Of a stretch of DNA of 64,000 bases, positions 30,523 to 53,604 are shown one piece after another (the first letter of the stretch is position 1; every line of letters begins with the position of its first letter). The stretch is taken from assembly GCF_016599855.1 (NCBI RefSeq), contig NZ_CP067041.1, forward strand, positions 4,774,001-4,838,000, given 5' to 3'. The stretch is from Bradyrhizobium diazoefficiens (GTDB lineage: Bacteria > Pseudomonadota > Alphaproteobacteria > Rhizobiales > Xanthobacteraceae). Position numbers and translations under genes: made by a program. The notes beneath the pieces are model-generated. The model was not told the origin of the DNA and made no database searches. It worked only from the letters and a program-made list of their open reading frames with translations.

Positions 30523-31539
30523 CTAGACGGCCGCCCTCTGCCGAACGATGATTTCGAGAGCGGTAGGGGCCCCGCGACCATGCGGCAAGCTAAAGTCGAC
30601 ATCCGGTCCAATCGGGACTATGCGTTTCGGATTAACGGTTTCGTGGCTCTGGTAGTAGTGAAGTTTGATATGATCGAAGTTCGTTGTCCTGCGGACCCCG
30701 GGCCACTGGTAAAGCTCGCGGGTATAAGCCCAGAGATTGGGATAGTCGACTAGCCGGCGGATGTTGCATTTGAAGTGCCCCACGTAAACCAAGTCGAAGC
30801 GCACAAGCGTCGTGAACAAACGCCAATCCGCTTCGGTGATCACGTCACCGCAAAGATACCGCTGTTTTGCAAGCAGCCGCTCAAGGCGGTCGAGGGTTTC
30901 GAACAAGGGCAGCACCGCCTCCTCGTACGCTTCCTGTGTGGTAGCGAAACCCGCCCGGTACACGCCGTTGTTAACCCGAGTGTAGACCTCTTCATTGACC
31001 TGGTCGATCACCTTCCGCAGGTGGCTAGGATAGTAATCACCCGCCGTTGCGCCGATCTCGTCGAAGGTAGAATTCAGCATGCGGATGATCTCGGGTGACT
31101 CGTTCGAGACGATCTTTCCGGTCTTCTTGTCCCATAGGACTGGAACCGTGACTCGGCCCGAATAGCTTGGGGCAGCCGAAGAATACACCTCATAGAGACG
31201 ACGAGCGCCGTTCACCGGATCCCCGCTAACCCCGTCGCCTTCTTCGAAGGTCCAACCTTCCGAGCCCATGAGCCAATGCACAATCGAGACAGAGATAGCA
31301 TCCTCAAGACCCTTAATAACCTGGAAAATGAGGGTGCGATGAGCCCATGGACATGCCAAGGAGACGTACAGGTGATAGCGCCCGGTCTCGGCGCGAAAAC
31401 CTCCTGACCCGGAAGGACCCGGCTTACCATCGGCGGTTATCCAGTTGCGAAATTGGCTTTCGGACCGAACGAATCGCCCTCCGTCGGCCGCGCTGTCCAA
31501 CCGACGATCGTGCCAACGACCGTCTAACATTAGTCCCAT
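30523..31539 (-). CDS. Glutathionyl-hydroquinone reductase (YqjG/PcpF type)
   Basis: About 338 residues of the Xi-class glutathione transferase group, which removes glutathione from glutathionyl-hydroquinones, as PcpF does in pentachlorophenol breakdown. The N-terminal phrase FRNWITADGKPGPSG leads to the active-site Cys in LYVSLACPWAHRT (residue 63). The C-terminal all-helical domain has YLCGDVITEADWRLFTTLVRFD and HFKCNIRRLVDYPNLW. The start at 31539 has GAGGCGAG upstream. A second, diverged copy lies at 54.7 kb. It may serve the glutathione-linked aromatic pathway at 42-50 kb, though 11 kb away. Confidence 0.92.
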   Translation of the reverse strand: MGLMLDGRWHDRRLDSAADGGRFVRSESQFRNWITADGKPGPSGSGGFRAETGRYHLYVSLACPWAHRTLIFQVIKGLEDAISVSIVHWLMGSEGWTFEEGDGVSGDPVNGARRLYEVYSSAAPSYSGRVTVPVLWDKKTGKIVSNESPEIIRMLNSTFDEIGATAGDYYPSHLRKVIDQVNEEVYTRVNNGVYRAGFATTQEAYEEAVLPLFETLDRLERLLAKQRYLCGDVITEADWRLFTTLVRFDLVYVGHFKCNIRRLVDYPNLWAYTRELYQWPGVRRTTNFDHIKLHYYQSHETVNPKRIVPIGPDVDFSLPHGRGAPTALEIIVRQRAAV

Positions 31540-31789
31540 CTGAACTCGCCTCATCAAAGGAACATTCAACGATATTCTAGATCCCGCCGCACCGAAGGCG
31601 AGCGCCGATACCAACTCAATAGACGGATAGGGTCGACGAGAAAATCCACAATCAGGCGAACTAACTGTTCCTAGAATTAGAACCAGTCCGGCGATATTCG
31701 AGAAAGTCCCGGTATATTCCTGATAGCCGAACCTAGAGCTTCCGCGCGACGCAGATCTGGCGCTGACCCGACTTCGCTATAGATTGGTA

Positions 31790-32522: not shown

Positions 32523-34031
32523 CTAGCCGCGTCGATAGGCCCATGGCAACAAACCGTCGAGCTGGCGGTTCGGGTGACCGCCGACGATCCTGGTGAGAAC
32601 ATCGGTAATGTAGGCCAGCGGGTCGACATGATTCAGCTTGCAGGTTTCGATCAGGGAGGCGATGACAGCCCAGTGCTGGGCACCGCCGTCAGAACCTGCG
32701 AACAATGCGTTTTTCCTGTTGAGCGTAATCGGACGAATCGAACGTTCCACGACATTGTTGTCTAGCTCGATACGGCCGTCATCGATGAAGCGCGTCAGGC
32801 CCTCCCAGCGTGAGAGACCATAGCGGATTGCGTCGGCCAGCTTGCCCTTTTGGCTGATCAAGCCGAGTTTGGTTCGCAGCCATTTCTGTAGTGCATCGGC
32901 GAGTGGCCGAACTTTTTTGTATCGAACGAGACGACGCTCCTCGGCGCTGCGGCCGCGGATGTCCTTCTCGATCGCATAGAACTCGGCGATATGCTTGAGC
33001 GCCTCGCTTGCAATGGGCGCGGGACCAGGTGTGGCAAGTTCGTAGAAGTTACGCCGCATATGCGACCAGCAGAATGCAAGCTGAACGTCGCCACGCTCGG
33101 CGAGCTTGCCATAGCCGGCATAGCCATCGACCTGCAGGATCCCCTTGAAGCCTGCGAGATGAGCGATCGGTCGATCGGCTTTGCGATCGGGGGCATAGAC
33201 ATAGGCGACGCCCGGCGGATCGGCGCTGCCCCATGGCCGGTCGTCCGCGGCATAGGCCCAGAGCTGACCGGTCTTGGTGCGCCCGCGGCCGGGATCGAGC
33301 ACCGGCATCGTCGTCTCGTCGGCGAACAGCTTCGTCCGTTGCCTGAGCTTGCCAAGGAGGCGCTCATGCAATGGGCGCAGGTGGAAGGCTGCCTGCCCCA
33401 CCCAGTCCGCCAACGTCGAACGATCGAGTTCAATGCCCTGGCGGGCGTAAATCTGCGCCTGCCGGTAGAGCGGCAGGTGATCGGCATATTTTGAGACCAG
33501 GACCTGAGCGACGGTGGCCTCGGTCGGCAATCCGCCCTCGATCAGCCTGGCCGGCGCCGGCACCTGCATGACGCCGTCCTCGCAGGCCCGGCAGGCGTAT
33601 TTGGGACGCCGGGTCACGAGGATCCGGAACTGCGCCGGGACCAGGTCCAACCGCTCGCTCTTATCCTCGCCGATCCGGTGCAACTCGCCCTGGCAGCAGG
33701 GACAGGTCTTGTCCTCTATGTCGACGACGACCTCGATCCGCGGCAGGTGCGTCGGCAAGGCACCACGGTTGCCGCGGCGCTTGCGAGCCCGCGCCTCACG
33801 GCCTTCAGGTATGCTAATGTCTTGCGCCGTCTCGCTGTACGCCGCGACCTGCTCGACGTCTTCTAGACCCAGCAGCATCTGATCTTCAGGCAGCGTCTCC
33901 GCCCGCCGGCCAAACCGATGCCGCTGCAATTCCTTGATGATCTGACGCAGCCGTTCGCTCTCGCACCGCTCGGCGAGCAGCATCGCTTTCAGCGTCTCGG
34001 GATCGTCAGGCAGGGCGTCACTCACACCCAA
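32523..34031 (-). CDS. tnpC: IS66 transposase TnpC
   Basis: A 502-residue DDE transposase of the IS66 family. An N-terminal leucine-zipper-like part (AERCESERLRQIIKELQRHRFGRR) precedes a zinc-finger-like region with CPCCQGEL and CRACEDG, then the core. The acidic residues are in LFADETTMPVLDPG, LQVDGYAGYGKL and ELDNNVVERSIRPITLNRKN. The tail ADVLTRI-like (ITDVLTRIVGGHPNRQLDGLLPW) is the usual TnpC end. No frameshift. It follows tnpB by 74 bases. Confidence 0.95.
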   Translation of the reverse strand: MGVSDALPDDPETLKAMLLAERCESERLRQIIKELQRHRFGRRAETLPEDQMLLGLEDVEQVAAYSETAQDISIPEGREARARKRRGNRGALPTHLPRIEVVVDIEDKTCPCCQGELHRIGEDKSERLDLVPAQFRILVTRRPKYACRACEDGVMQVPAPARLIEGGLPTEATVAQVLVSKYADHLPLYRQAQIYARQGIELDRSTLADWVGQAAFHLRPLHERLLGKLRQRTKLFADETTMPVLDPGRGRTKTGQLWAYAADDRPWGSADPPGVAYVYAPDRKADRPIAHLAGFKGILQVDGYAGYGKLAERGDVQLAFCWSHMRRNFYELATPGPAPIASEALKHIAEFYAIEKDIRGRSAEERRLVRYKKVRPLADALQKWLRTKLGLISQKGKLADAIRYGLSRWEGLTRFIDDGRIELDNNVVERSIRPITLNRKNALFAGSDGGAQHWAVIASLIETCKLNHVDPLAYITDVLTRIVGGHPNRQLDGLLPWAYRRG

Positions 34032-37804: not shown

Positions 37805-40042
37805 CTAGTTACCATCATTACCCTTCAGGGACGCCAAGACACGTTCAGGAAGCATCGGCGTGTGTCGAAGGCGGACGCCGGTCAGTTCAGCAATCGCGTT
37901 GCTGATCGCTGGTGCTACCAATGGAGTTGCCATCTGACCGACACCCGTAGGCTTGTTTTGTGTCGACAATATCTTGATCTGTATGTCAGGCATATCGCGC
38001 ATACGCATCACGGTATAGTCGTAGAAATTGGATTGCTCGATTTCTCCGTCCTTGATCGTAATGCGTTCCGACAGTGCCAGACCCATGCCGTAGATCACGC
38101 TTCCTTCAATCTGTGCGACAATGTTGTTGGGCTGAACAGCGACACCGGGATCGATTGCGACCCAGAACTTCATGAGCTTGATCACGCCTGTTGCGCGATC
38201 CAGCGAGACTTCCCCGACACCCGCGATTTGCGTTCCGGCATAGTCGATATATGCAATCCCCAGCGCGTTGTTGCTACGCTTCTGTCCCCATCCGGACATT
38301 TTTCCGACGGTCTCGATGACCGCGCGCGCACGCGGAGCATCTTTCGTCAGCTCGCGCCGGAATTCCAATGGATCGACGGCATGCTTCCTTGCTGCTTCGT
38401 CGATAAAGGCTTCCGTCGCAAATTTGTTCGCTGTGAAACCAATGCCGCGCAGAGCGGAAACGCGGACACCACTATGCATTGCGAAATGTTCGGCCAGGCG
38501 GTTCCGAATTGCATAGGTTGGGAGCTCCGTACCCGACAACGAAATGATGTCCCGTTCCTTCCAGGGACCAAAGTAGCGGACCGGATCCTGGAAAACGCCG
38601 ACGTTGTCCGTGGCAACCCGGTGATGCCACGACATTAGCTTGCTGGACGCGTCAAAGCCTGCCTCGATATGGTGTGCAGACATCGGACGAAACCGTCCGT
38701 TTCTTATGTCGTCCTCCCGGGTCCAGAGCACCTTTACCGGCCGCTTGACCTGCTTTGATAGAAACAAAGCACCTAGGAGAAAATCTTGGTCTCGTGGACC
38801 TCGACGGCCGAATCCTCCTCCTAACAGCGTTTCGTTAAATTTGACGTTCTCCTTCTCGATCCCGAGCGCTGTCGCTGCGGTCGTGACCGCCATCGTCTGG
38901 CTTTGTGTTCCGCACCATATCTCGACGCTTTTCCCGTCAGCCGAGACAGCCGCGACCGCGTTTAGGGGCTCCATCTGGGCATGGTAGGCGTAGTCGCAGC
39001 GGAATTCGCCTTTGAGGACGGTCGCTGCTGCCTTTATGCCGTCTGCACCCTCACCAACCGTGTCCCAAAGGGTCGCTTTTTGCACAACGTCGCCTCGAGC
39101 GACGGCCGCATAATTGTTCAGCGCTGCCTCGCTATCGAAAGAAGGTGCTCTTGCGGATTTTGTCCAAGTGACCTCTAGAACATCCTTGGCCGCGAATGCT
39201 GCCCATGATGTTTCGGCGACCACGCCTACACCGATCGGCAAATTGTAAACGCCGATGACACCTGGAATCCCACGTGCCGCTGTGTCTTTAATGGTCTCTG
39301 GTCGGCTATCAGGCAACGCGGGGCACAGCAGTGTGCCATACAACATCCCGGCAACCTGCACGTCGATGCTGTACCGCGCTGATCCATCGATTTTCGATGG
39401 CAGCTCGAATCTCATCACATCCTTGCCAATCAGGCGAAACCGATCAGGTTGCTTCAGATCATCCGGAATGATCTTGGGCGCGGCGGAAGGAACGACGGCG
39501 AACTTGGCGACGTCTCCATAAGAAAGGCTGCGGCCGGTCTTCTGATGGATCACGACGCTCGGGCCCGTCGTCAATTCATGGACGGGCACATTCCATCGTT
39601 GGGCCACATTGTCGAGAAGCACCCGGCGGACCTGCGCGCCAAATTGGCGAAGCTGCGTATAGTATCCAGCGACGGCGGTGCTGCCGGCGGTATACATCAT
39701 CCCGAGGAAGCCGGGGTTGCCGTAGAGCACATCGCTTGGCGGTGCGGCGACGATTCGAACGTCCTTCCAGTCCGCGTCGAGCTCCTCCGCCAAGATGAGC
39801 GGAAGCGAGGTCTTCGAACCCTGACCCATCTCGGCTGACGGCGACATGATCGAGATCATCCCGTCTTGAGCAATTGTCACCCAGGGGTTCATTTCAACCG
39901 GAGAAGCTGCGGATGCTAAGGATACGATGCTTGGCGACCGATTATGGCCGACGAAGCCGAACGTCAACCCTGCAGCGCCTATCATGACCGTTCTGCGGCT
40001 CAGAGCGATATGGTCCAGCGCCATTCGACGGGTCATGGTCAT
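37805..40042 (-). CDS. Molybdenum hydroxylase large subunit (isoquinoline 1-oxidoreductase beta-like)
   Basis: About 745 residues of the xanthine dehydrogenase family, single Mo-cofactor subunit type. A twin-arginine leader (SRRTVMIGAAGLTFGF) suggests export. Cofactor-binding stretches are seen: EMGQGSKTSLPLILAEEL, AGSTAVAGYY, GGGFGRRG and LRGIGFTANKFATEAFIDE. In the place of the catalytic Glu of GVGE-type sequences it has GVGQ (TGVGQMATPLVAPAISN). The start codon overlaps the stop of the iron-sulfur gene by 4 bases, so both are made together. Such enzymes hydroxylate N-heterocycles or aldehydes, with electrons passing to a cytochrome c; no cytochrome gene is near. Confidence 0.88.
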   Translation of the reverse strand: MTMTRRMALDHIALSRRTVMIGAAGLTFGFVGHNRSPSIVSLASAASPVEMNPWVTIAQDGMISIMSPSAEMGQGSKTSLPLILAEELDADWKDVRIVAAPPSDVLYGNPGFLGMMYTAGSTAVAGYYTQLRQFGAQVRRVLLDNVAQRWNVPVHELTTGPSVVIHQKTGRSLSYGDVAKFAVVPSAAPKIIPDDLKQPDRFRLIGKDVMRFELPSKIDGSARYSIDVQVAGMLYGTLLCPALPDSRPETIKDTAARGIPGVIGVYNLPIGVGVVAETSWAAFAAKDVLEVTWTKSARAPSFDSEAALNNYAAVARGDVVQKATLWDTVGEGADGIKAAATVLKGEFRCDYAYHAQMEPLNAVAAVSADGKSVEIWCGTQSQTMAVTTAATALGIEKENVKFNETLLGGGFGRRGPRDQDFLLGALFLSKQVKRPVKVLWTREDDIRNGRFRPMSAHHIEAGFDASSKLMSWHHRVATDNVGVFQDPVRYFGPWKERDIISLSGTELPTYAIRNRLAEHFAMHSGVRVSALRGIGFTANKFATEAFIDEAARKHAVDPLEFRRELTKDAPRARAVIETVGKMSGWGQKRSNNALGIAYIDYAGTQIAGVGEVSLDRATGVIKLMKFWVAIDPGVAVQPNNIVAQIEGSVIYGMGLALSERITIKDGEIEQSNFYDYTVMRMRDMPDIQIKILSTQNKPTGVGQMATPLVAPAISNAIAELTGVRLRHTPMLPERVLASLKGNDGN

Positions 40043-40494
40043 CCCTCCTGCGAAGCGCGCTGAATAGCGCTCAAAATTCTGGGATACGTGCCGCATCGAC
40101 AAATATGAACGCTCATGTATTCAACGATTTCGTCGCGCGACGGCTTCGCGTTGTGCGCCAACAATGCTGCTGCGCTCATGATATGGCCTGACTGACAGTA
40201 TCCGCATTGTGGGACCTGCTCGGCCAACCACGCTTGCTGCACGGGATGGGTGGAGTCCTTGGAAAGACCCTCGATGGTGGTAACGGAGCGGCCGCTAACC
40301 GCTGATACCGAGGTCTGGCACGAGAATGCGCGATCGCCATCGACATGGACCATGCATGCTCCGCACAGGCCCGCGCCGCAGCCGAATCGGGTTCCGGGAA
40401 GCTTCAAATATTCCCTAAGTATCCATAGCAGAGGCGTTTCTGCCGGGGCCTCCACCTTCACGGGCGAGCCATTTACATTGAACGTGATAGCCAT
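40039..40494 (-). CDS. Molybdenum hydroxylase [2Fe-2S] subunit (IorA-like)
   Basis: A 151-residue protein with two [2Fe-2S] clusters. The plant-ferredoxin cluster uses the Cys residues of RFGCGAGLCGACMVHVDGD and FSCQTS; the second, helical cluster those of QCGYCQSGHIM and ICRCGTYPRI. It passes electrons from the molybdenum cofactor to an acceptor. GGAGAAG stands 8 bases before the ATG. First gene of the two-gene operon. Confidence 0.93.
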   Translation of the reverse strand: MAITFNVNGSPVKVEAPAETPLLWILREYLKLPGTRFGCGAGLCGACMVHVDGDRAFSCQTSVSAVSGRSVTTIEGLSKDSTHPVQQAWLAEQVPQCGYCQSGHIMSAAALLAHNAKPSRDEIVEYMSVHICRCGTYPRILSAIQRASQEG

Positions 40495-40646
40495 GCGCGT
40501 TTCTTCTCCGTGGTTCTATGACATACGGTCTACGCTCTGACTTGACCTTCGAGCACCATCGAAAAAAGAGAAGCTGAACATCATTCTTCATCCAGACGAC
40601 ACCCGAAGCCCTGGTTCGGTGAACGATTCCGTCTCCAATCCCTCGC

Positions 40647-41987
40647 CTAGAGACGACCAATCGCTGGATCGTCAAAATGATCGCGATATTGCTGGATGGC
40701 TTTCTGCTCATCGAATTCGCCAGAGGACTTTGCAATCACAACGGTCGCCACGGCATTGCCGATAGTATTCCCGATCGCACGCGCTTCGGACATGAAGCGA
40801 TCGACACCCAGCAACAATGCGAGCCCCTCGGCAGGAATTAGCCCGCTCGCCGTAAGGGTCGCGGCGAGAATGACGAAACCGGCACCAGAGACCCCTCCCA
40901 CTCCCTTTGAGGTGAACATCATGAATGCAAGGAGGCCGAGTTGTTGCCAAAGCGACAGATCAATTCCGTAAACTTGCGCAATGAAGATTGCACCCATCGA
41001 TATATAGATGGCGCTCCCGTCCTGGTTCATCGAATAGCCGGTCGGGACAACCAGCCCAACGACCGGCCGCGAGCACCCAAAGGCCATCAGCTTTTCCATC
41101 AGCCGGGGCATCACAACCTCGGAATTGCACGTGGCGAACACGATGACCAGTTCGTCTTTAATAAAAAGCAGAAATTTGAAGATACTGAAATTGTAGCTGC
41201 GGGCGATCAGCCCCAGCACCACCACGACAAAGAGCACGAGCGTCAGATAGACCGAGGCAATCAGTTTCACCAACGACGAAAGCGAGCCAACTCCGAACGT
41301 CGCAACCGCAAACGCGATGGCGCCGAAGGCGCCAATCGGCGCGAATTTGATGACCAATCGGATGATCCCGAACAGGATCGACGAAATACGCTCGAGAAGC
41401 TCCTCGACGGGTTTGCCTTTTTCTCCAACAGCAATGAGCGCGGCGCCGAACAGAATTGCAAAAAACAGGATTTGGAGCACATCCAGTTTTGCAAATGCGT
41501 CGACGATGTTGTCCGGCACGATGTTGACAATGGAATCAACGATCGAATGCTGCTTGGTCTGGGCAATGATATGCGCCGCCGATTGTTGCGCACCCGCCGC
41601 GACCGGCGGCGTTAAACCTGCTCCGGGCTTTACGATATTGATGACGATCAGCCCTACCGCGAGCGCGAGGGTCGTCACGATTTCGAAGTACGCGATCGTT
41701 CTAAGCCCAAGCCGGCCGACCTTTTTCATGTCGCCGATGCCGGAAATTCCGGTAACGACCGTCAGGAAAACGATCGGCCCAATGACCATTTTGATCATTC
41801 GCAGAAAGACGTCGGCAAGCGGCTTCAGTTGCTTTCCGAGATCGGGATAGAGCCAGCCGACGAGAATGCCTAGGCTTATCGCGACCAGCACCTGGAGGGT
41901 CAAGTTCGCGTACCAACGCCTGGATATTGGTGTCGGTGCTGCGCGATCTGCAGCAGGGCGGTCCGAACCTAGTGTCGCTACATCCAT
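40647..41987 (-). CDS. DctA-type dicarboxylate/proton symporter, variant
   Basis: A 446-residue dicarboxylate/amino acid:cation symporter (DAACS) with about eight helices and two re-entrant loops. Typical parts are LTLQVLVAISLGILVGWLYPD, IKMVIGPIVFLTVVTGI, MEKLMAFGCSRPVVGLVVPTGYS and DRFMSEARAIGNTIGN. It is close to DctA in length and in the GKQLKPL segment. The serine-rich hairpin that usually reads TSSSES is ATCNSEVVMPRL here, and the NLDG of helix 7 is NQDG. These changes at the binding site hint at a different substrate. The gene stands alone; a malic enzyme scrap lies just upstream. Confidence 0.87.
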   Translation of the reverse strand: MDVATLGSDRPAADRAAPTPISRRWYANLTLQVLVAISLGILVGWLYPDLGKQLKPLADVFLRMIKMVIGPIVFLTVVTGISGIGDMKKVGRLGLRTIAYFEIVTTLALAVGLIVINIVKPGAGLTPPVAAGAQQSAAHIIAQTKQHSIVDSIVNIVPDNIVDAFAKLDVLQILFFAILFGAALIAVGEKGKPVEELLERISSILFGIIRLVIKFAPIGAFGAIAFAVATFGVGSLSSLVKLIASVYLTLVLFVVVVLGLIARSYNFSIFKFLLFIKDELVIVFATCNSEVVMPRLMEKLMAFGCSRPVVGLVVPTGYSMNQDGSAIYISMGAIFIAQVYGIDLSLWQQLGLLAFMMFTSKGVGGVSGAGFVILAATLTASGLIPAEGLALLLGVDRFMSEARAIGNTIGNAVATVVIAKSSGEFDEQKAIQQYRDHFDDPAIGRL

Positions 41988-42107
41988 TGTACGTTCCCTC
42001 GTGCATACACCGTTCCATGCTCACAACGCTGAATCGGCTGGCCCCTTTTGCGCAATCGTTTGCACCCCGCGGCGCACCAAAACTCGAAATGCGCATAGCC
42101 CGCTGCA

Positions 42108-42314: not shown

Positions 42315-43076
42315 TTAAGCCGAACGCTTCTGCATATCCCGAATGTCGGGATACTGCTCCGAAAGCAAAGAGCCGTGGTAAAACGCCTTCTTGAACGACG
42401 GCCGCGCCTTCATGCGCTCCAACCAAGCCCGGAAGCCCGGCAGATCGCTCCAGAGATTCGAATAGCCCAGATCTTCCATTCGGATCAGCGGAGGAAGAAT
42501 GCAGATATCGGCGAGCGAAATGCCTTCTCCGAGGAGATAAGGCTGGTCCTTCAGCTTCGCCTCCATCCGGAGCACGGTCTTCCGAATGCTGTTCTCGGCC
42601 TGCTTGATCTTCTCGTCCGAGAAGCCTTTATCTTTATCCATTTCGCCGAGGAATTTATCGCGCAACGGCTTCGAAGTAGCCACACCCGTGAATTCGGCTT
42701 CGCTCATCTCGGAAAAATGACGGACGAAAGCGGCGTTATAGGAGGGATACCGGACGGCCGTCGTCGGCACTTCCTCGAAGAAACGCATCCAGGCCCGCAT
42801 CTCGGCCCGCTGCTGCGGGTTCTGCGGCGTCAAGGATGTCTCCGGGAATACCTCGTCGAGATATTCCATGATGACGGAAGAATCGATCACCGGGACGCCA
42901 TCGTGGACGAGCGTCGGGACGACACCGTTGGGATTGAGTTTGAGGTACTCGGGCTTCAATTGATCTTGCTTGAACAATTTAAGGCGATGCTCGACGAAAT
43001 CCATTCCCTTTTCCGCGAGGGTAATTCGCACTTTCTGGCTGCAGGTCGACTGCATGGCATTGTAAAGTTCGAGCAT
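42315..43076 (-). CDS. Glutathione S-transferase (LigF/beta-etherase-like)
   Basis: A 253-residue glutathione transferase. The thioredoxin-fold half reads LELYNAMQSTCSQKVRITLAEKG, with a Ser/Cys active-site region at STCSQKV, then NPNGVVPTLVHDGVPVIDSSVIMEYLDE, where VPTL and DSS bind glutathione. The helical half is long (about 165 residues) with LLGEGISLADICILPPLIRMEDLG. Length and N-terminal pattern resemble LigF-like GSTs of lignin-dimer breakdown, but simple eta-class GST cannot be excluded. AAGGAGGAG stands before the ATG. It follows the alcohol-dehydrogenase-like gene by 46 bases and is likely co-transcribed from the LacI-controlled promoter. Confidence 0.88.
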   Translation of the reverse strand: MLELYNAMQSTCSQKVRITLAEKGMDFVEHRLKLFKQDQLKPEYLKLNPNGVVPTLVHDGVPVIDSSVIMEYLDEVFPETSLTPQNPQQRAEMRAWMRFFEEVPTTAVRYPSYNAAFVRHFSEMSEAEFTGVATSKPLRDKFLGEMDKDKGFSDEKIKQAENSIRKTVLRMEAKLKDQPYLLGEGISLADICILPPLIRMEDLGYSNLWSDLPGFRAWLERMKARPSFKKAFYHGSLLSEQYPDIRDMQKRSA

Positions 43077-43122
43077 CGACTAACTCCTCCTTCAAGACCT
43101 CGAAAAAATTGCCGCAATCGGT

Positions 43123-44151
43123 TCAGGGCCGAACCACGACGCGATCCCGCGAACCTTCCCACGTCGCCTTGAAGGCTTCCTTGGCCTTATCGAACGCGAA
43201 TACCGCCCGCTCGTGGACGGGGAACGGCCTCAACTTCCCGCTTTCGAAGCCGGGGCGCAGCTGATTCAATATCTCCGCACCCTGCTCGCCGGAAAGAGCA
43301 AGACTGTCGACGCCCAGGAACGAGTGCCTGCCACGGAAGAATCTAAAGATGTCGAACGGCACGTTGCGATCCAGCGTCGAAATGAAGATTTGGCGAGCTT
43401 CTGTCGCCATCGACGCGCACGCCTGCTCGAAATAGGGGCTGCCGACGGTGTTGAAGACGATGTCGGCGCCGTGACCATCCGTAGCCGCACGCACGTAGTC
43501 CGCGATACCTTGAGCGGATGCATCGATCATATCGAACGGCCTCGTCGCGTGACCCATGTAGGCCTCTCTTCCGCGCTCCACCGCGAATACGCGAGCACCG
43601 TTCATCGTCGCGAGCTGGATAACGGCCTGGCCCACCTTGCCGTTGCCGCCCAATACTAAGACCACGTCACTTGCCTTCACGCCGCCGGCGCGACGCAACC
43701 CCTCGAAAGCGGTGACGAACGGCACGCCGATAGCACCCGCCTCGTCGAGCGAGATACTGCTCGGCTTTTCGGAAATCTCCGAGGCGGATAGCACCAAATA
43801 CTGCGTCAGCGAGCCATCCTTCTTGATGCCAAGCTCACCGCTACTCCCCCAGACTTCCTTGCCTACGACGGCCGACGGACCCTCGACGACGACGCCGGCA
43901 TAATCCCGTCCTGGCGTACGCGGCCATACCGCATAGGGCATATGCCCCATCGCGGCCTTTACATCGCTCATGTTTACCCCTGCCGCCCTGACCTCGACGA
44001 CGCAGTCCTGGCTGCCCGCCACCACCTGACGCGTTTCCATATTGAGAGCGAGATCTTCTGCACTGGTAGCGGCAGCGGAGATCCGAATCGCTCTTCCCGA
44101 AAGCGCTACAGAGCGACCCTTGGAGCAATCATCAGAATCAATGTCGGTCAT
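43123..44151 (-). CDS. Zinc-less medium-chain dehydrogenase (quinone oxidoreductase-like)
   Basis: About 342 residues of the MDR superfamily. The GroES-like half has VVEVRAAGVNMSDVKAAMG and WPRTPGRDYAGVVVEG; the Rossmann half has DVVLVLGGNGKVGQAVIQLA, then VFAVERG and GADIVFNTVGSPYFEQA. The zinc-binding Cys/His set of true alcohol dehydrogenases is absent, as in quinone oxidoreductases. It probably reduces or oxidises a carbonyl or enone using NAD(P)H. I chose the ATG at 44151. It is the first gene of the leftward arm of the LacI-controlled cluster; a GCAA-N4-TTGC operator lies 43 bases upstream within the promoter. Confidence 0.88.
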   Translation of the reverse strand: MTDIDSDDCSKGRSVALSGRAIRISAAATSAEDLALNMETRQVVAGSQDCVVEVRAAGVNMSDVKAAMGHMPYAVWPRTPGRDYAGVVVEGPSAVVGKEVWGSSGELGIKKDGSLTQYLVLSASEISEKPSSISLDEAGAIGVPFVTAFEGLRRAGGVKASDVVLVLGGNGKVGQAVIQLATMNGARVFAVERGREAYMGHATRPFDMIDASAQGIADYVRAATDGHGADIVFNTVGSPYFEQACASMATEARQIFISTLDRNVPFDIFRFFRGRHSFLGVDSLALSGEQGAEILNQLRPGFESGKLRPFPVHERAVFAFDKAKEAFKATWEGSRDRVVVRP

Positions 44152-44186
44152 TCGCAAAACCTCAAGTGAGAACAAAGTCACGTGCA

Positions 44187-44215
44187 ATCCTCATGCAATC
44201 GTTTGCGTTCGTCAA
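44187..44215 (-). promoter_or_regulatory. Promoter and LacI-type operator of the dehydrogenase/GST operon
   Basis: Read leftwards: TTGACG (44210-44215) as -35, a 17-base spacer and GAGGAT (44187-44192) as a weak -10. The spacer holds the palindrome GCAAACGATTGC (44195-44206), equal to the pattern GCAA-N4-TTGC found at two other places in this cluster. A repressor bound there would block RNA polymerase. A half-site TGCAATCC overlaps the -10. Confidence 0.6.
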
Positions 44216-44268
44216 GCTGTTTTTTTGACCGCCCCGCCCGCGCAGAAGGGATGGGTTGGATAGTGCAT

Positions 44269-44307
44269 TGCAATGGATTGCGAAATTCGCTCGCGGCGGG
44301 CTATAGA
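44269..44307 (+). promoter_or_regulatory. Promoter and LacI-type operator of the LacI gene
   Basis: The palindrome GCAATGGATTGC (44270-44281) overlaps a possible -35 TTGCGA (44278-44283), which is followed after 18 bases by TATAGA (44302-44307). The start codon is only 6 bases after this -10, so if this is the promoter, the message has almost no leader. The operator suggests autoregulation. Confidence 0.5.
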
Positions 44308-44312
44308 TAGGC

Positions 44313-45359
44313 ATGCGACCAACAAGATCTACGCTGAAAGACGTAGCGGAAGCGGCGAGCGTTCATGTCTCGACTGCCTCACGCGCATTGAACCCCGAAA
44401 CGCAGCACCTCATCGGACCTGATGTTGTGGAACGCGTTCGGGAAGTTGCCCGCAAGCTCGATTACCGTGTGAACGCGTTTGCGTCGAGCCTACGCACAAA
44501 GCGCTCGAATGCCATTGGGGTCTTGATACCGGACCTTCTGAACCCGGTCTTTCCGCCGATCATCGTCGGTATACAAGAGACGATCAGCCAGGAAGGTTAC
44601 GAGATTACAATCGCGAGCGACGGCAACGACTTGGCCCGACACGCCGCAGTGATCGAGGGGATGCTGTCCAGGCAAGTGGACGGGATCATATTGGCGACAG
44701 CACTATTAAAAGACCCGGCGTTGACGCGACTGATTGATCGCAACGTCGCCGCGGTCATGGTCAACAGACGCGATGACAAGGGCCGCGCGTCGTCGGTGGT
44801 AACCGACGATGAGTGCGGAATTGCTCTAGCTGTAGAGCATCTTGTCTCGCTAGGCCACCGCGATATCTGCCATATCGCGGGCCCGCAAAATCTCTCAACG
44901 GGCGTGGCCCGACTGCGTGGATTTGTCGGCGCGATGAAGGCGAACGGTCTAAGCCTCGACGAATCGCGAGTTGCGGTTGCCGAGTCGTTCGTGCGGGAGG
45001 CCGGCAGCCGCGCCGCATCCCAACTCTTGTCTCATAAGAAGAGGCCGACGGCATTGGTCGCCGCCAACGACCTGTTGGCACTTGGCTGCTACGATGCCCT
45101 GAGGACGAACGGACTTCGCTGCCCGACTGATATATCCATCACGGGCTACAACGACATGCCGTTCGTCGACTTGGTGTCGCCTCCGTTGACGAGCATTCGG
45201 ATTCAGCACCACCAGATAGGAACCGAAGCGGCTAGATTGCTGTTGCGCAAGCTCTCGGAACCCCATGCCCCGGTCATCGATGTCGTTCTGCGCCCGGCAT
45301 TGGTCATTCGCGAATCGACCTCGCCTCCCCGATCCGCGCCGCGCAAAAGGCGCACGTAA
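44313..45359 (+). CDS. LacI-family transcriptional repressor
   Basis: A 348-residue LacI/GalR-type protein. The headpiece is complete: STLKDVAEAASVHVSTASRALN, then a hinge helix with the motif VREVARKLDYRVNAFASSLRTKR. The periplasmic-binding-like core shows IGVLIPDLLNPVFPPIIVGIQE, GIILATALL, VNRRDDKGRASSVVTDDECG and the C-terminal TSIRIQHHQIGTEAARLLL. It sits in the middle of the catabolic cluster, between a leftward and a rightward operon. The three GCAA-N4-TTGC palindromes nearby suit a protein of this family. The inducer is unknown but is probably an intermediate of the pathway. Confidence 0.94.
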   Translation: MRPTRSTLKDVAEAASVHVSTASRALNPETQHLIGPDVVERVREVARKLDYRVNAFASSLRTKRSNAIGVLIPDLLNPVFPPIIVGIQETISQEGYEITIASDGNDLARHAAVIEGMLSRQVDGIILATALLKDPALTRLIDRNVAAVMVNRRDDKGRASSVVTDDECGIALAVEHLVSLGHRDICHIAGPQNLSTGVARLRGFVGAMKANGLSLDESRVAVAESFVREAGSRAASQLLSHKKRPTALVAANDLLALGCYDALRTNGLRCPTDISITGYNDMPFVDLVSPPLTSIRIQHHQIGTEAARLLLRKLSEPHAPVIDVVLRPALVIRESTSPPRSAPRKRRT

Positions 45360-45371
45360 TCACGTTGACCC

Positions 45372-45390
45372 GTTCCTAACCCATAGGAAC
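45372..45390. terminator. Hairpin after the LacI gene
   Basis: A perfect 7-base stem GTTCCTA/TAGGAAC with a 5-base loop lies 13 bases after the LacI stop. A T-run is lacking directly after it (CTTTT comes 12 bases later), so termination efficiency is doubtful. Confidence 0.4.
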
Positions 45391-45422
45391 CCGACCGGAG
45401 AGCTTTTCCGTCGCGCAGCCTC

Positions 45423-45451
45423 TTGATCTTATGCAATCGATTGCGTATATG
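45423..45451 (+). promoter_or_regulatory. Promoter and LacI-type operator of the dioxygenase operon
   Basis: TTGATC (45423-45428), 17 bases, TATATG (45446-45451). The spacer contains the perfect 12-base palindrome GCAATCGATTGC (45433-45444), bounded by T and G as at the other two sites. The placement between -35 and -10 is that of a classic repressor operator. The dioxygenase ATG follows 23 bases after the -10 with GGAGG in front. Confidence 0.68.
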
Positions 45452-45474
45452 AGGTCGCGATCGGAGGTACTGCC

Positions 45475-46365
45475 ATGATCATAGACAGCGAGTCACAGGT
45501 CTCGGACGCAGTTATCGAAGCAATGGCAAAGTCGCCGAGCGCGCGGCTGACTCAGATCATGAATTCGCTCGTGAGACATGCTCACGCATTTGCGCGCGAA
45601 GTGAATCTGTCGGAGGAGGAATTCGACGTCGGCATCGATTTCCTCAACCGTATCGGGAAAGCGACAAACGATTCCCACAACGAAGGAATTCTGTTTTCAG
45701 ACGCGATCGGGTTCTCGACCCTGGTTTGCCTGCTCAACAATGGAAAAAACGGCGCGACGGAAACCGCGGCAGCCCTTCTGGGTCCATTCTGGCGGATGAA
45801 CTCCCCTCGGACCGCCAACGGCGATTCAATCGTGCGATCACACACTCCCGGCCCGGTCCTCTTCGCGAACTGCCGGATAATAGATACGAACGGCAGTCCC
45901 TTGGCTGGCGTGGAAGTAGACGTCTGGCAAGCCTCACCCGTCGGTTTGTATGAGAATCAGGACAGCGGCCAGGCGGATATGAACCTCCGTGGTAAGTTCG
46001 TTACCGATCGCGATGGCCGTTTCTGGTTTCGTTCCGTCAAGCCTGCAGGATACCCCGTCCCGACCGACGGCCCCGTCGGCGATCTGCTACGTGCCCAATC
46101 TCGGCATCCCTTCCGTCCTGCTCATCTCCATTTTTTGGCATTCAAGCAGGGTTTCAAAACCTTGGTCACGCAGGTTTTTGTCGATGATGACGAACGACTC
46201 ACGACGGACGTCGTGTTCGGAGTCACGTCTCATCTCGTCGGGCACTACAGACACCACAATGAAGCGGCCCCGACGGCCGACGTGACGGGAGCCTGGTATT
46301 CGCTTGAATACGACTTCGTCATGGAAGCCGGCGAGGCCAAGCTGCCGACTCCGCCCATCAAGTAG
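45475..46365 (+). CDS. Hydroxyquinol 1,2-dioxygenase-like intradiol dioxygenase
   Basis: A 296-residue non-heme Fe(III) enzyme that opens a catechol-type ring between the hydroxyl groups. The N-terminal dimerisation domain (RHAHAFAREVNLSEEEFDVGIDFLNRIG) and the catalytic domain are complete. Iron ligands can be placed: Tyr159 (VGLYENQ), Tyr193 (AGYPVPTDGPVG), His217 and His219 (RPAHLHF). The DGPVG and RHPFRPAH phrases match hydroxyquinol dioxygenases better than catechol enzymes. GGAGG is 7 bases before the ATG. First gene of the rightward operon. The product would be maleylacetate if the substrate is hydroxyquinol. Confidence 0.88.
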   Translation: MIIDSESQVSDAVIEAMAKSPSARLTQIMNSLVRHAHAFAREVNLSEEEFDVGIDFLNRIGKATNDSHNEGILFSDAIGFSTLVCLLNNGKNGATETAAALLGPFWRMNSPRTANGDSIVRSHTPGPVLFANCRIIDTNGSPLAGVEVDVWQASPVGLYENQDSGQADMNLRGKFVTDRDGRFWFRSVKPAGYPVPTDGPVGDLLRAQSRHPFRPAHLHFLAFKQGFKTLVTQVFVDDDERLTTDVVFGVTSHLVGHYRHHNEAAPTADVTGAWYSLEYDFVMEAGEAKLPTPPIK

Positions 46366-46393
46366 TTCCGTCTCACGCTCCGGATCGAGTAAC

Positions 46394-47155
46394 ATGTCCT
46401 ATCCAAGAGATCTCAAGAACAAAGTCGCGCTCGTCGTGGGAGGCGCTGGCGGAATCGGAGCAGCCACCAGTCAATTGCTTGCGGCTGCGGGTGCACGTTT
46501 GATCATCACACACATGCCCGGCCAAGCGCTCGCAGCAGCCGCTGGCAATGTGGTCGCCGAACTGCCCGGCGAAGGCCACAAGGCGTTCGAGGCCGATGTC
46601 TCCATGACCCCTTCTCTGATCGGTTTGCGGGACCGCATTTCCCAGGAGTACGGGCGGCTGGACATTCTGGTGAACGCCGCCGGATTCACGAGACCGGTGG
46701 CGCATGCCGACCTCGACGCTCTGGATGACGACCTCATCGACCAGATGTTCCGCGTGAACTGGCGAGGCCAATTCGCGACCATCAGGACCTTCGCGCCCCT
46801 TTTGGTCGCTTCGGGTGACGGATTAGTCGTTTCGATATCGTCGATAGCCGCTTTCACCGGGGTGGGCTCTTCGATCGCATACTGCGCCGCGAAGGCCGGT
46901 ATCGACATCATGACCAAATGTCTGGCACGCGTCCTCGCGCCTCACGTACGCGTTCTCGCCGTATCTCCAGGGGTCGTGGACACGACTTTCGTCCCAGGAC
47001 GGGATGTCGGCTTCAACGACAAGGTATCGAATACCACGCCGCTCAAGCGGATCGCGGAGCCAAGCGATATCGCGGCTGGAATCCTCGCATGCGCGACGCA
47101 TCTTGGCTTTTCGACTGGAACGACGATCGTCGTCGACGGCGGGCGCGCACTGTGA
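46394..47155 (+). CDS. Short-chain dehydrogenase/reductase (SDR)
   Basis: About 253 residues of the classical SDR family. The NAD(P) loop is VALVVGGAGGIGAATSQLL (TGxxxGIG type with GG in first place), then LVNAAGFTRPV and the catalytic Ser, Tyr and Lys in ISSIAAFTGVGSSIAYCAAKAG. The C-terminal signature VVDGGRAL is present. The ATG at 46394 fits homology; the preceding gene ends 28 bases upstream. It probably reduces or oxidises a pathway intermediate; a role in place of maleylacetate reductase is a guess. Confidence 0.9.
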   Translation: MSYPRDLKNKVALVVGGAGGIGAATSQLLAAAGARLIITHMPGQALAAAAGNVVAELPGEGHKAFEADVSMTPSLIGLRDRISQEYGRLDILVNAAGFTRPVAHADLDALDDDLIDQMFRVNWRGQFATIRTFAPLLVASGDGLVVSISSIAAFTGVGSSIAYCAAKAGIDIMTKCLARVLAPHVRVLAVSPGVVDTTFVPGRDVGFNDKVSNTTPLKRIAEPSDIAAGILACATHLGFSTGTTIVVDGGRAL

Positions 47156-47175
47156 CCAACGCAAAAGAGAGGGCC

Positions 47176-48099
47176 GTGTCGAATAAAGTCATCATCACCT
47201 GTGCCGTCACCGGAAACCTGACCAAGCCGGGAGACACGCCGCACCTTCCGATTACTCCATCGCAGATCGCCCTCGCCTGTCTCGGCGCGGCCAGCGCCGG
47301 TGCAGCCGTCGTCCACATTCATGTGCGCGACCCGGCGACCGGCGCTCCCTCCATGGAACTGGCGCTTTACAGGGAAGTCGTCAGACTGATCCGCGCCAAG
47401 AACCCGGATCTCATTCTGAACCTCACCACTGGCCCGGGCGGCCGCTTCGTTCCCTCTCCCGACGAACCTAAAATCGCCGCGCTGGGAACAACGCTCATGG
47501 TTCCGGAACGTCGCGTCGAACACGTCGCTGCACTGCAGCCCGACATCTGCACGCTCGATCTCAATACCATGAACTCGGGTGCGGAGGTCGTCATCAACAC
47601 CCCATCGAACGTCCGGCGCATGGCAAAGGTCATCCGCGAAGCAGGTGTCCGCCCCGAGCTCGAGCTTTTCGATTCCGGCGATATCGCGTTGATGCACGAT
47701 CTGCTTAAAGATGGGACCTTGAGCGGCCCCCTTCTCTGCTCCTTCGTCATGGGAGTGCGTTACGGGTTTCAGCCGAGTCCAGAGACGGTTCTTTACGCAC
47801 GCAATCTGCTTCCGCCAGGCGCGCAATTCACCGTCATCGGAATCGGTCGAGCGATGTTTAAGATGGCCGCGCAGTCGTATCTCGCCGGTGGACATGTCCG
47901 GGTCGGTCTGGAAGATTCCATCTATCTGTCTAAGGGCACGCTGGCCCCATCCAATGCCGCGCTGGTCGAAAAGGTCGCTCGGATGGTGCGGGACCTCGGC
48001 GGGGACGTCGCGTCGGCGAGCGAGGCCCGCAGCATTCTCCAGCTTCCTCAGCGGCAGGTCCCCGATCTTCTGAGCGACCAGGCTTCTGCGGTGGGTTGA
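47176..48099 (+). CDS. Beta-keto acid cleavage enzyme (BKACE, DUF849)
   Basis: About 307 residues of the family of 3-keto-5-aminohexanoate cleavage enzyme (Kce). These Zn-dependent enzymes react a beta-keto acid with acetyl-CoA to give acetoacetate and a new acyl-CoA. The zinc site is in VVHIHVRDPATG; further motifs are NLTTGPGGRF, LDLNTMNSG, PELELFDSGDIALM and GHVRVGLEDSIYLSKG, with the Arg and Glu residues expected near the active site. The GTG start at 47176 has AGAGAGGG upstream; a GTG overlapping the SDR stop (47152) is the alternative. Its position after a dioxygenase suggests beta-ketoadipate or a relative as substrate; this is inference. Confidence 0.9.
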   Translation: MSNKVIITCAVTGNLTKPGDTPHLPITPSQIALACLGAASAGAAVVHIHVRDPATGAPSMELALYREVVRLIRAKNPDLILNLTTGPGGRFVPSPDEPKIAALGTTLMVPERRVEHVAALQPDICTLDLNTMNSGAEVVINTPSNVRRMAKVIREAGVRPELELFDSGDIALMHDLLKDGTLSGPLLCSFVMGVRYGFQPSPETVLYARNLLPPGAQFTVIGIGRAMFKMAAQSYLAGGHVRVGLEDSIYLSKGTLAPSNAALVEKVARMVRDLGGDVASASEARSILQLPQRQVPDLLSDQASAVG

Positions 48100-48217
48100 G
48101 GCGACGGCCGAGCTTCGTTGGCTTGCCGGTTGATGCTCGCGTACTTGTGGGACTGCTCGGATCATCCCCCACAAGGCAGACGATGCACCTTCCGGAAATA
48201 CGATTGGACTGAGAGTG

Positions 48218-49630
48218 ATGGAACTAATCAAATCCGAAGTCTTTCAGGGGTCCGCATCTTCGGCCCAGAATGCGGAGGGGTTCGACACGGATCTTTTCGT
48301 GATAGGCGGTGGCTCTGGCGGCGTTCGCGCGGCCCGCATTGCAGCCGGCCACGGAGCACGTGTCATGCTCGCCGAAGAGCATCGGGTCGGCGGGACCTGC
48401 GTCATCAGAGGATGCGTGCCTAAGAAGTTGCTCGTATACGCAAGCCGCTTCGCTCACGATTTTCGCGACGCCGAAGGCTTTGGCTGGACGGTGCCCACGC
48501 CGCATTTCGACTGGAACAGCTTGATCACGAACAAGGACGCCGAGATAGACAGGTTGGAGAACGTCTACCAATCAAACCTCGAGAAGACCAAAGTTGAAAT
48601 ACTTCGGAGCCGTGCCGTCGTCGAAGGGGCGCACGAGGTGCGCGTCGTAAAAACCGGAAGATTGGTGCGTGCGAGATTCATCTTGATCGCGGTAGGCGCC
48701 AATCCCTCGACACTGCCGGTGCCAGGAGGCGATCTTGCGATCACATCCAACGAGGCCTTCTATCTGACGAAACGACCAGATCACGTTCTGATCGTTGGAG
48801 GCGGCTATATATCCGTTGAATTCGCCGGCATATTTGCGGGGTTGGGAAGCCGGGTGACCCTCGTTCACAGAGGTGATAAGCTTTTGCGCGGTTTCGACCA
48901 CGCCATTCAGGATCGTCTGGGCGATACCTATCGCAAACGCGGAATTGAAGTGCTTCTGGGCCGGAAGGTCGAGGACATCCGGAAGGTCGGCGGCTTCCTT
49001 GAGGTTCGCCTGTCGGATGGCACGATTCGTCGCGTAGACGAGGTCATGGCGGCGACCGGCCGCAAGCCGCACACGAAAGGTCTCGGCTTGGAAGGCGCCG
49101 GGATTGTACCGGACGACGACGGTGCGATTCCGGTAAATGATCATTGTCAGACCAAAGTCCCGTCCATCTACGCGGTCGGCGACGTCACAAACCACCCTCA
49201 CCTAACACCCGTCGCAATTCGCGAAGGACATGCGGTCGCCGATACTCTGTTCGGGGGGAGGCCAACCCCGATCGTGCACGAGCTGATTCCTACCGCAGTC
49301 TTTTCGACTCCTGAGATCGGCACGGTTGGCCTCACCGAGGCGGCTGCGAGACATCAATACGGCCACGTCACGATCTTCCAAGCCACCTTTCGTGACATGA
49401 AAGCGACCCTCTCAGGGAGCGAGGAGCGAACCTTCATGAAGCTGATCACTCATCCTTCTACCGACAAGGTGCTCGGCGTTCACATCGTGGGCCACGAGGC
49501 GGCCGAACTCATACAGCTCGTGGGCGTCGCCATGACCATGGGAGCGACCAAAGCAGATTTCGATCGCACGATGGCAGTTCATCCCACGGCTGCGGAAGAA
49601 CTTGTCACAATGCGGACGCCTTCCAACTAA
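48218..49630 (+). CDS. Glutathione-disulfide reductase-like flavoprotein
   Basis: About 470 residues of the pyridine nucleotide-disulfide oxidoreductase family. The FAD loop is DLFVIGGGSGGVRAARIAAG, the redox pair is in GGTCVIRGCVPKKLLVYAS (Cys-x4-Cys), the NADPH loop in VLIVGGGYISVEFAGIFAGLG followed by HRGDKLLRGFD, and the C-terminal His-Glu in VHPTAAEELVTMR. All are as in glutathione reductase. GTG at 48215 is an alternative start next to the ATG. It lies 118 bases after the BKACE gene and regenerates GSH, which suits the GST and hydroquinone reductases in the region. From memory, a glutathione-reductase-like gene also sits in the tft cluster of 2,4,5-T degraders. Confidence 0.92.
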   Translation: MELIKSEVFQGSASSAQNAEGFDTDLFVIGGGSGGVRAARIAAGHGARVMLAEEHRVGGTCVIRGCVPKKLLVYASRFAHDFRDAEGFGWTVPTPHFDWNSLITNKDAEIDRLENVYQSNLEKTKVEILRSRAVVEGAHEVRVVKTGRLVRARFILIAVGANPSTLPVPGGDLAITSNEAFYLTKRPDHVLIVGGGYISVEFAGIFAGLGSRVTLVHRGDKLLRGFDHAIQDRLGDTYRKRGIEVLLGRKVEDIRKVGGFLEVRLSDGTIRRVDEVMAATGRKPHTKGLGLEGAGIVPDDDGAIPVNDHCQTKVPSIYAVGDVTNHPHLTPVAIREGHAVADTLFGGRPTPIVHELIPTAVFSTPEIGTVGLTEAAARHQYGHVTIFQATFRDMKATLSGSEERTFMKLITHPSTDKVLGVHIVGHEAAELIQLVGVAMTMGATKADFDRTMAVHPTAAEELVTMRTPSN

Positions 49631-53001: not shown

Positions 53002-53604
53002 ATGACTAAAGTTCTTGTGCTTTATTACTCGTCTCACGGTCACATCGAGGCGATGGCTCACGCCGCAGCGGAAGGTGCGCAATCCGCAGGCGTAGAAGTC
53101 GACGTAAAGCGCGTTCCCGAGACGACGCCCGAGGAAGTTGCTCGGAAAAATGGCTTCAAGCTTGATCAAAAGGCGCCGATTGCGAGCGTCGACGATCTCG
53201 CTGGCTACGAGGGCATAATTTTCGGGTTTCCGACGCGTTTCGGGACTATGCCCGCGCAAATGAAGGCATTTTTGGATCAGACTGGCGGGCTCTGGTACGA
53301 ACGAAAGCTTGTCGGCAAAGTCGGCTCGATCTTCACGTCGTCGGGCACGCAGCATGGCGGGCAGGAATCGACGATCCTCGGAAGCATTCCGCTGTTGCTT
53401 CACCACGGCATGATCATTGTCGGTCTTCCCTATACAGCGCGGGGCCAGATGCGCCTCGATGAAATCACTGGCGGTTCGCCGTATGGAGCATCGACTATCG
53501 CGGCACCGGATCGCTCGCGCCAGCCGTCGACGAATGAACTCGAACTTGCTTCACTGCAAGGGAAGTTCGTTGCCGAAGTTGCCCGAAAACAAGCTGCGGT
53601 CTGA
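53002..53604 (+). CDS. wrbA: NAD(P)H:quinone oxidoreductase WrbA
   Basis: A 200-residue flavodoxin-like FMN enzyme that reduces quinones by two electrons, avoiding semiquinones. Typical parts: [17 protein letters not shown] (phosphate loop of FMN), [27 protein letters not shown], then [15 protein letters not shown] and [20 protein letters not shown]. Full length and intact. AAGGATCT stands 5 bases upstream of the ATG. The role fits detoxification of quinones from the aromatic pathways in the region. It is not tightly linked to other intact genes. Confidence 0.95.

Follow-up and report, generated by a model that had tools for sequence, protein, structure and literature searches.

Which pathway is served by a gene cluster of Bradyrhizobium diazoefficiens in which an intradiol dioxygenase and a beta-keto acid cleavage enzyme (BKACE) stand around a LacI gene together with a glutathione S-transferase (GST) and a glutathione-disulfide reductase (GR)? 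The cluster lies in a 64-kb stretch of a single-contig genome of 7.10 Mb (C1:4774001-4838000), hereafter the window, whose own numbering is used below. An earlier note on this DNA had described a block of seven intact genes from 42315 to 49630 and had proposed that it breaks down an aromatic compound through a glutathione conjugate or ether. With a probability of about 0.55, we favour a LacI-controlled regulon, composed of a DctA-type transporter, a medium-chain dehydrogenase (MDR) with the GST, lacI, and the dioxygenase with a short-chain dehydrogenase (SDR), BKACE and perhaps GR, which would degrade a phenolic compound funnelled to a trihydroxybenzene and end via BKACE.

A conserved module and its operator-like palindrome

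As the earlier note had it, the seven open reading frames (ORFs) are all uninterrupted, and each scores above the Pfam cut-offs for its named family. On the minus strand lie GST (42315..43076) and MDR (43123..44187), a zinc-type dehydrogenase of the quinone-oxidoreductase type whose start may be near 44151, close homologues being about 12 residues shorter; its best NCBIfam model, the PIG3 quinone-oxidoreductase subfamily, is below cut-off (106 vs 297 bits). The LacI-family regulator (44313..45359, plus strand; PF00356, PF13377) separates MDR from the divergent hydroxyquinol-type dioxygenase (45475..46365, plus strand; PF00775, PF04444), which is followed on the same strand by SDR (46394..47155; PF13561; ATG at 46394, ORF listed from 46304), BKACE (DUF849, 47176..48099; PF05853; GTG at 47176) and GR (48215..49630; PRK06116, 563.6 bits, cut-off 480), the genome's second glutathione-disulfide reductase.

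Scanning named genomes with the dioxygenase as seed gave 89 relatives, several Bradyrhizobium species among them, and the best 80 of the 89 loci were analysed. BKACE is also present in 34 of these 80, SDR in 33 of those 34, and the loci often carry MDR and a cupin of about 118 residues downstream, with LacI divergent; no match to this cupin was found within the window. When the loci from the genus, GST-seeded and plasmid searches were pooled with the dioxygenase-seeded ones, 70 had both dioxygenase and BKACE, and the 59 among these with distinct dioxygenase sequences are the basis of all counts out of 59. This set was gathered by several seeds and is no random sample, and its neighbour counts are lower bounds since many loci end 1.5-10 kb on each side or at contig ends. 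The dioxygenase-SDR-BKACE core recurs (SDR in 58 of the 59), so that the gene order, for which the earlier note had called for a check elsewhere, is indeed found in other genomes. MDR is present in 52 loci, LacI in 47 and the cupin in 43, followed by GST and a Liv-type substrate-binding protein (13 each), an FrsA-like hydrolase (8), DctA (6), maleylacetate reductase (5), the FeS subunit of a molybdenum hydroxylase (4) and GR (0). Within the genus, all 146 genomes hold some dioxygenase match at 1e-60, and a match of at least 70% identity occurs in only 9 of the 145 other genomes, BKACE adjoining in all nine. The arrangement varies: MDR is divergent with no LacI between, and GST is lacking, in a Bosea (L014) and in two other genomes from the family of this bacterium (L004/L188, L189). 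LacI, the hydroxyquinol-type dioxygenase, SDR, BKACE and MDR form a conserved catabolic module.

A LacI-operator-like palindrome, TGCAATCGATTGCA, is common to the dioxygenase upstream regions. With matches counted at up to 2 mismatches unless stated, it occurs in 52 of the 59 loci; in 38 of the 59, it stands no more than 250 bases ahead of the dioxygenase gene. Among the dioxygenase-seeded loci, it is found in 29 of the 36 classed as module (some truncated) against 2 of the 43 classed as without module, one of these two, L051, containing a LacI and breaking off within the dioxygenase; L017 belongs to neither class. GST-type operons carry the site close to lacI and to the start of the transporter, and not upstream of the dioxygenase. 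The window contains exactly four sites, all of them at regulon promoters: before dctA (42051..42064, about 64 bases ahead of its start), before MDR-GST (44194..44207) and before lacI (44269..44282), with 2 mismatches each, and before the dioxygenase operon (45432..45445) with 1 mismatch. Chance expectation for the window, from a first-order Markov simulation, is 0.37 sites at 2 mismatches (maximum 2 in 60 runs). At 3 mismatches the same four sites are returned with 4.05 expected, so that it is the stricter threshold and the placement that carry the significance. Because an operator-like site precedes the DctA-type transporter gene (40647..41987, minus strand; NF002461, 556 bits, cut-off 513), the likely uptake gene, the regulon extends on its left side to 40647 or beyond; the gene set described earlier stands, and its left limit of 42315 has to be moved. 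The conserved palindrome at the regulated promoters also agrees with the LacI control that had been claimed, the four sites being predicted to bind LacI. We conclude that the gene set is a real, conserved LacI regulon, which LacI would repress, and whose members can be listed gene by gene with the predicted operator.

Other settings were encountered among the relatives. In L028 and others, 17 loci altogether, a dioxygenase relative of about 60% identity lies near uvrC-like and pgsA-like genes (recognised by eye); each of these neighbours is present in 17 loci and in no module locus, which suggests a solitary dioxygenase among housekeeping genes. On an Agrobacterium plasmid (L159, 8001-10474), a relative of about 58% is in line with annotated hpaH (hydratase) and hpaI (aldolase), a context suggesting a different, pyruvate-yielding intradiol route; relatives of similar identity are present in many genomes of the genus. 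Beside the module itself, an FrsA-like hydrolase resembling 2,6-dihydroxypseudooxynicotine hydrolase recurs (L004, L189, L203, L211, L213), and it may release a trihydroxybenzene from an aryl ketone.

Probable ring cleavage and a proposed lower pathway

The nearest solved relatives of the dioxygenase are PnpC (3n9t), which we take to be a hydroxyquinol dioxygenase, 6-chlorohydroxyquinol dioxygenase (8r2x) and hydroxyquinol 1,2-dioxygenase (1tmx), with 206, 199 and 188 bits respectively, versus 129 and 105 bits for catechol 1,2-dioxygenases. The protein is below both the catechol and the chlorocatechol NCBIfam cut-offs. Its segments GLYENQ, AGYPVP and RPAHLH align with 3n9t and 1tmx and contain two Tyr and two His, presumably the iron ligands. 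From these comparisons, the ring that is cleaved is predicted to be a trihydroxybenzene, most likely hydroxyquinol. Catechol cleavage was considered and rejected, the scores favouring hydroxyquinol-type relatives.

BKACE is above the gathering score of PF05853 and has the BKACE fold; the solved chain with its top score, 9zsc (337 bits), is listed with neither substrate nor organism and is absent from the fold matches, and the genome contains three BKACE matches. Agrobacterium 14-818c has a 67% identical BKACE and, at a distance of 4-5 kb across a LysR gene, an intradiol dioxygenase together with an annotated maleylacetate reductase, a neighbourhood that links BKACE to 3-oxoadipate. The beta-keto acid maleylacetate is the product of hydroxyquinol ring cleavage, and BKACE enzymes convert a beta-keto acid and acetyl-CoA to an acyl-CoA and acetoacetate. 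From the observed gene content, conserved order and common operator-like sites, we propose the substrate, the repression, the order of the steps and the roles of SDR, MDR, GST and GR as follows. Judged by homology, the dioxygenase would open the trihydroxybenzene ring to a maleylacetate-type unsaturated beta-keto diacid, whose double bond MDR (or SDR) would reduce to give 3-oxoadipate, and BKACE would convert 3-oxoadipate and acetyl-CoA to succinyl-CoA and acetoacetate in place of PcaIJ and PcaF. In a subset of lineages, GST would most likely act on the reactive unsaturated intermediate with glutathione, by cis-trans isomerisation or by removal of a glutathione adduct, while GR might recycle glutathione disulfide (GSSG). 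Ring cleavage and the BKACE step are well supported by gene context. If BKACE closes the pathway, part of the carbon would exit as acetoacetate, which would change the energy yield and possibly feed storage polymers.

Several observations weigh against this scheme. BKACE is below the cut-off of the NCBIfam model for 3-oxoadipate:acetyl-CoA acetyltransferase (NF053568, 178.4 vs 350 bits), as are two of its relatives, and the regulon has no recognisable ring hydroxylase. A canonical maleylacetate reductase is found beside the module in 5 of the 59 loci, all with MDR, so that MDR may not simply replace this reductase; in two of the five (L063, L212), a second dioxygenase lies beside it. No Fe-type maleylacetate reductase stands beside the dioxygenase in the window, the four PF00465 hits of the genome being all elsewhere. 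The genome does have a maleylacetate-reductase-like gene at C1:3.955 Mb (its three top solved relatives score 455-426 bits, and two of the three bear the name maleylacetate reductase), a second dioxygenase of the same Pfam family (two genes with a catechol-dioxygenase N-terminal domain), and elsewhere pcaF and one pcaI/scoA-family gene over cut-off; the module therefore need not serve hydroxyquinol. As to the palindrome, it is missing from 7 of the 36 module loci (L005, L007, L011, L016 and L035 with long flanks, L024 and L027 with short ones), and three matches occur in the 149 kb that make up eleven other stretches of the genome, one of the three being perfect but inside a 912-residue ORF. 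Finally, no GR relative above 60% identity was found in the 59 loci.

The glutathione-related proteins

Neither GST nor GR was found in any of the best 80 of the 89 dioxygenase-seeded loci, and all 13 GST-positive loci of the 59 stem from GST-seeded searches. The seeds catch different dioxygenase subtypes (53-78% identity when dioxygenase-seeded, about 50-53% in GST-type operons), and neither count is therefore a frequency. Part of the candidates per genome being scored, GST has no match at 1e-50 in the 145 other genomes of the genus and a match at 1e-45 (46-54% identical) in 29 of 396 other genomes of the order; a search at 1e-85 across 398 phylum genomes returned its own copy only. Sixteen neighbourhoods were inspected among the 35 non-self hits in the order, and in three of them (L195, L201, L203; two genera) GST stands directly before dioxygenase-SDR-BKACE-MDR-cupin. 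Plasmids gave 16 records with a GST relative (40-51% identity), all inspected. In 14, corresponding to 10 distinct dioxygenase sequences, GST immediately precedes the dioxygenase, which BKACE, MDR and cupin follow, while LacI and a Liv-type ABC transporter stand ahead; one of these (L220) has a shortened GST and a BKACE sequence though no annotated BKACE gene. In Ensifer, SDR is placed beyond LacI. The two exceptions are Pseudosulfitobacter, where GST adjoins a gene of the fumarylacetoacetate hydrolase family, and Cupriavidus pinatubonensis, with a 39.6% GST near a flavin monooxygenase, LysR and gorA. In the window, GST starts 46 bases after MDR, and the gap holds a ribosome-binding-like CTCCTCC (GGAGGAG on the coding strand).

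The predicted structure of GST has a pLDDT (predicted local distance difference test) of 92, and its closest solved relative is LigF. GST carries an invariant Cys12-Ser13 pair at its active-site position: Ser13 aligns with LigF Ser14, and Cys12, at the place of LigF Asn13, is Cys in every row of two alignments (15 and 24 sequences). In passages of PMC4777856 (where it is numbered Ser-13) and PMC6369299, LigF Ser14 is placed near the thiol of glutathione (GSH); according to PMC4777856 its alanine mutant has less than 5% activity left, and PMC6369299 proposes GSH activation for LigF Asn13 and BaeA Asn14. GST is far from the NCBIfam beta-etherase cut-off (NF042997, 34.7 vs 440 bits), a model that possibly covers a different subclass of etherases. 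The NCBIfam model that it matches best is that of maleylacetoacetate isomerase (TIGR01262), below cut-off (92.9 vs 171) and over the N-terminal domain only. Ether cleavage would suit Cys12 less well than the chemistry of an isomerase, lyase or reductase. The recurring loci show the glutathione step to be genuine in part of the module family, with GST a candidate Cys-type isomerase or lyase, and the module offers a concrete setting for finding the role of such a LigF-related enzyme.

GR scores just under the cut-off of TIGR01424 (591.8 vs 606 bits) and has a paralogue of 56% identity at C1:3212341. At 1e-185, and with part of the candidates scored, it has no match in the 145 other genomes of the genus, and plasmids gave one hit of 63%, in Methylobacterium. 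A GR homologue (P0245) and an MDR homologue (P0130) are both listed with a longest contig of 85586 bases, an indirect hint of linkage; GST P0005 and MDR P0142 are likewise both listed with a 9435-base contig, a match that could be chance. The gap between BKACE and GR is 115 bases, and the window scan found no operator-like site directly ahead of GR or of the molybdenum-hydroxylase genes. Transcription of GR by read-through from the dioxygenase operon is possible, and its membership in the regulon is unproven. The linkage proposed earlier thus recurs for GST, dioxygenase and BKACE in the GST-seeded loci, and fails for GR.

How far does glutathione enter the pathway? A bolder reading, of rather low probability, is a glutathione-dependent, acetoacetate-yielding route in which GST would isomerise or de-conjugate the unsaturated ring-cleavage acid and BKACE, in place of a CoA-transferase and thiolase, would finish, possibly via a fumaryl-CoA reduced by MDR; if true, rhizobial plasmids and chromosomes would carry one more means of completing the trihydroxybenzene branch. 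A rather unlikely rival has BKACE act on the unsaturated product: GST would turn maleylacetate into fumarylacetate, BKACE would yield fumaryl-CoA and acetoacetate, and an acrylyl-CoA-reductase-like MDR would give succinyl-CoA. It would account for the joint retention of BKACE and MDR in loci that have a maleylacetate reductase as well, and it suits both the invariant Cys beside the equivalent of the LigF catalytic Ser and the isomerase as best model, although that model is missed and most modules are without GST. The low GST count also bears on a beta-etherase function, to which we give a small probability: SDR would oxidise an aryl ether, GST would split it with glutathione, GR would recycle GSSG in the manner of LigD-LigF-LigG lignin-dimer breakdown, and the ring would pass to the dioxygenase. 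LigF is the closest solved relative of GST; however, SDR is a near-constant member of modules that mostly have no GST, Asn13 is replaced by Cys, and NF042997 is missed. From the aromatic breakdown through a glutathione conjugate or ether that had been proposed, ring cleavage is thus retained and the glutathione link applies to part of the family, while a beta-etherase reaction is improbable.

That GST and GR are merely stress genes landed by chance beside a catabolic cluster appears very unlikely for the pair. At the limits used, and with part of the candidates scored, neither is matched in the 145 other genomes of the genus, and GR is in none of the 59 modules, whereas GST sits close behind MDR, after a promoter region with an operator-like site, and recurs with the module in Rhizobiaceae plasmids and other genomes; the explanation stands for GR alone. 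The module could also serve another compound, such as an N-heterocycle or an aryl ketone, through a molybdenum hydroxylase and an FrsA-like C-C hydrolase. IorAB-like genes adjoin the regulon, the FeS subunit and the hydrolase both occur beside other modules, and the L004 hydrolase is related to 2,6-dihydroxypseudooxynicotine hydrolase (159 bits). Both are nevertheless in a minority of loci, no FrsA-like hydrolase was recognised in the regulon of the window, and the dioxygenase is hydroxyquinol-like, leaving this option improbable.

GST-type proteins were also seen in other contexts. In L196 and L204, the neighbours of the GST relatives are genes for ABC transporters, genes that by eye encode E1/E2-type dehydrogenases, and one for an M24 protein, which in L204 is DddP-like but below the cut-off of that model; neither locus has a dioxygenase match, and GST relatives probably serve another pathway too. 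In the window, a GST-domain protein (30523-31614, minus strand) matches Pfam GST domains only, with no NCBIfam hit at the limit used; by eye, it is of the glutathionyl-hydroquinone reductase (YqjG/PcpF) type and could matter for quinone toxicity.

Related systems and neighbouring genes

The canonical hydroxyquinol branch relies on hydroxyquinol 1,2-dioxygenase and an Fe-type maleylacetate reductase, followed by PcaIJ/PcaF. The cluster resembles it in the class of its ring-cleaving enzyme and probably in the ring-cleavage product, whereas it is without Fe-type maleylacetate reductase and PcaIJ/PcaF and has SDR, MDR, BKACE and LacI control. The sphingomonad beta-etherase system, to which LigF belongs, also uses SDR and glutathione; the cluster differs from it by Cys12, the missed cut-off and other neighbours.

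As described in passages of PMC8963497 and PMC12379598, Methylobacterium has a DUF849 gene (kce) within pca operons without pcaIJF, proposed to convert beta-ketoadipate to succinyl-CoA and acetoacetate. BKACE would thus take the 3-oxoadipate step of an aromatic pathway in both cases, but in these sources the branch is that of protocatechuate, whereas here a trihydroxybenzene-type dioxygenase, SDR, MDR and GST are found, with the cupin in most relatives. In passages of PMC6365646, SDR and BKACE mutants are reported to be unable to grow on deoxyribonate; that pathway shares with the locus an IorAB-like molybdenum enzyme, SDR and BKACE, while its substrate is a sugar acid and no ring-cleaving dioxygenase is described there. 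Deoxysugar oxidation was rejected for the present locus, as it leaves the dioxygenase unexplained. For BKACE with 3-oxoadipate, the open-licence literature gave only this deoxyribose paper; passages of PMC12421898 concern a carnitine-type island and are unrelated. We found no study of such clusters in the open-licence literature, which does not establish their absence from print, and this catabolic regulon of soil and plant-associated bacteria is apparently unstudied.

To the left of dctA lie, on the minus strand, the [2Fe-2S] subunit of a molybdenum hydroxylase (40039..40494; Fer2_2, Fer2) and an IorB-like molybdopterin-binding subunit (37805..40102; MoCoBD_1/2), a possible upstream step; the membership of both is uncertain. 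Together with dctA, they are uninterrupted (37805-41987), and the intact stretch is therefore longer than first stated. Downstream of the regulon, beyond two LysR genes, a flavodoxin-like ORF (53002-53604, plus strand; FMN_red, Flavodoxin) is by eye a WrbA-type quinone oxidoreductase. An IS66-family transposase ORF (32523-34031, minus strand) with four IS66 Pfam domains is a sign of mobile DNA nearby.

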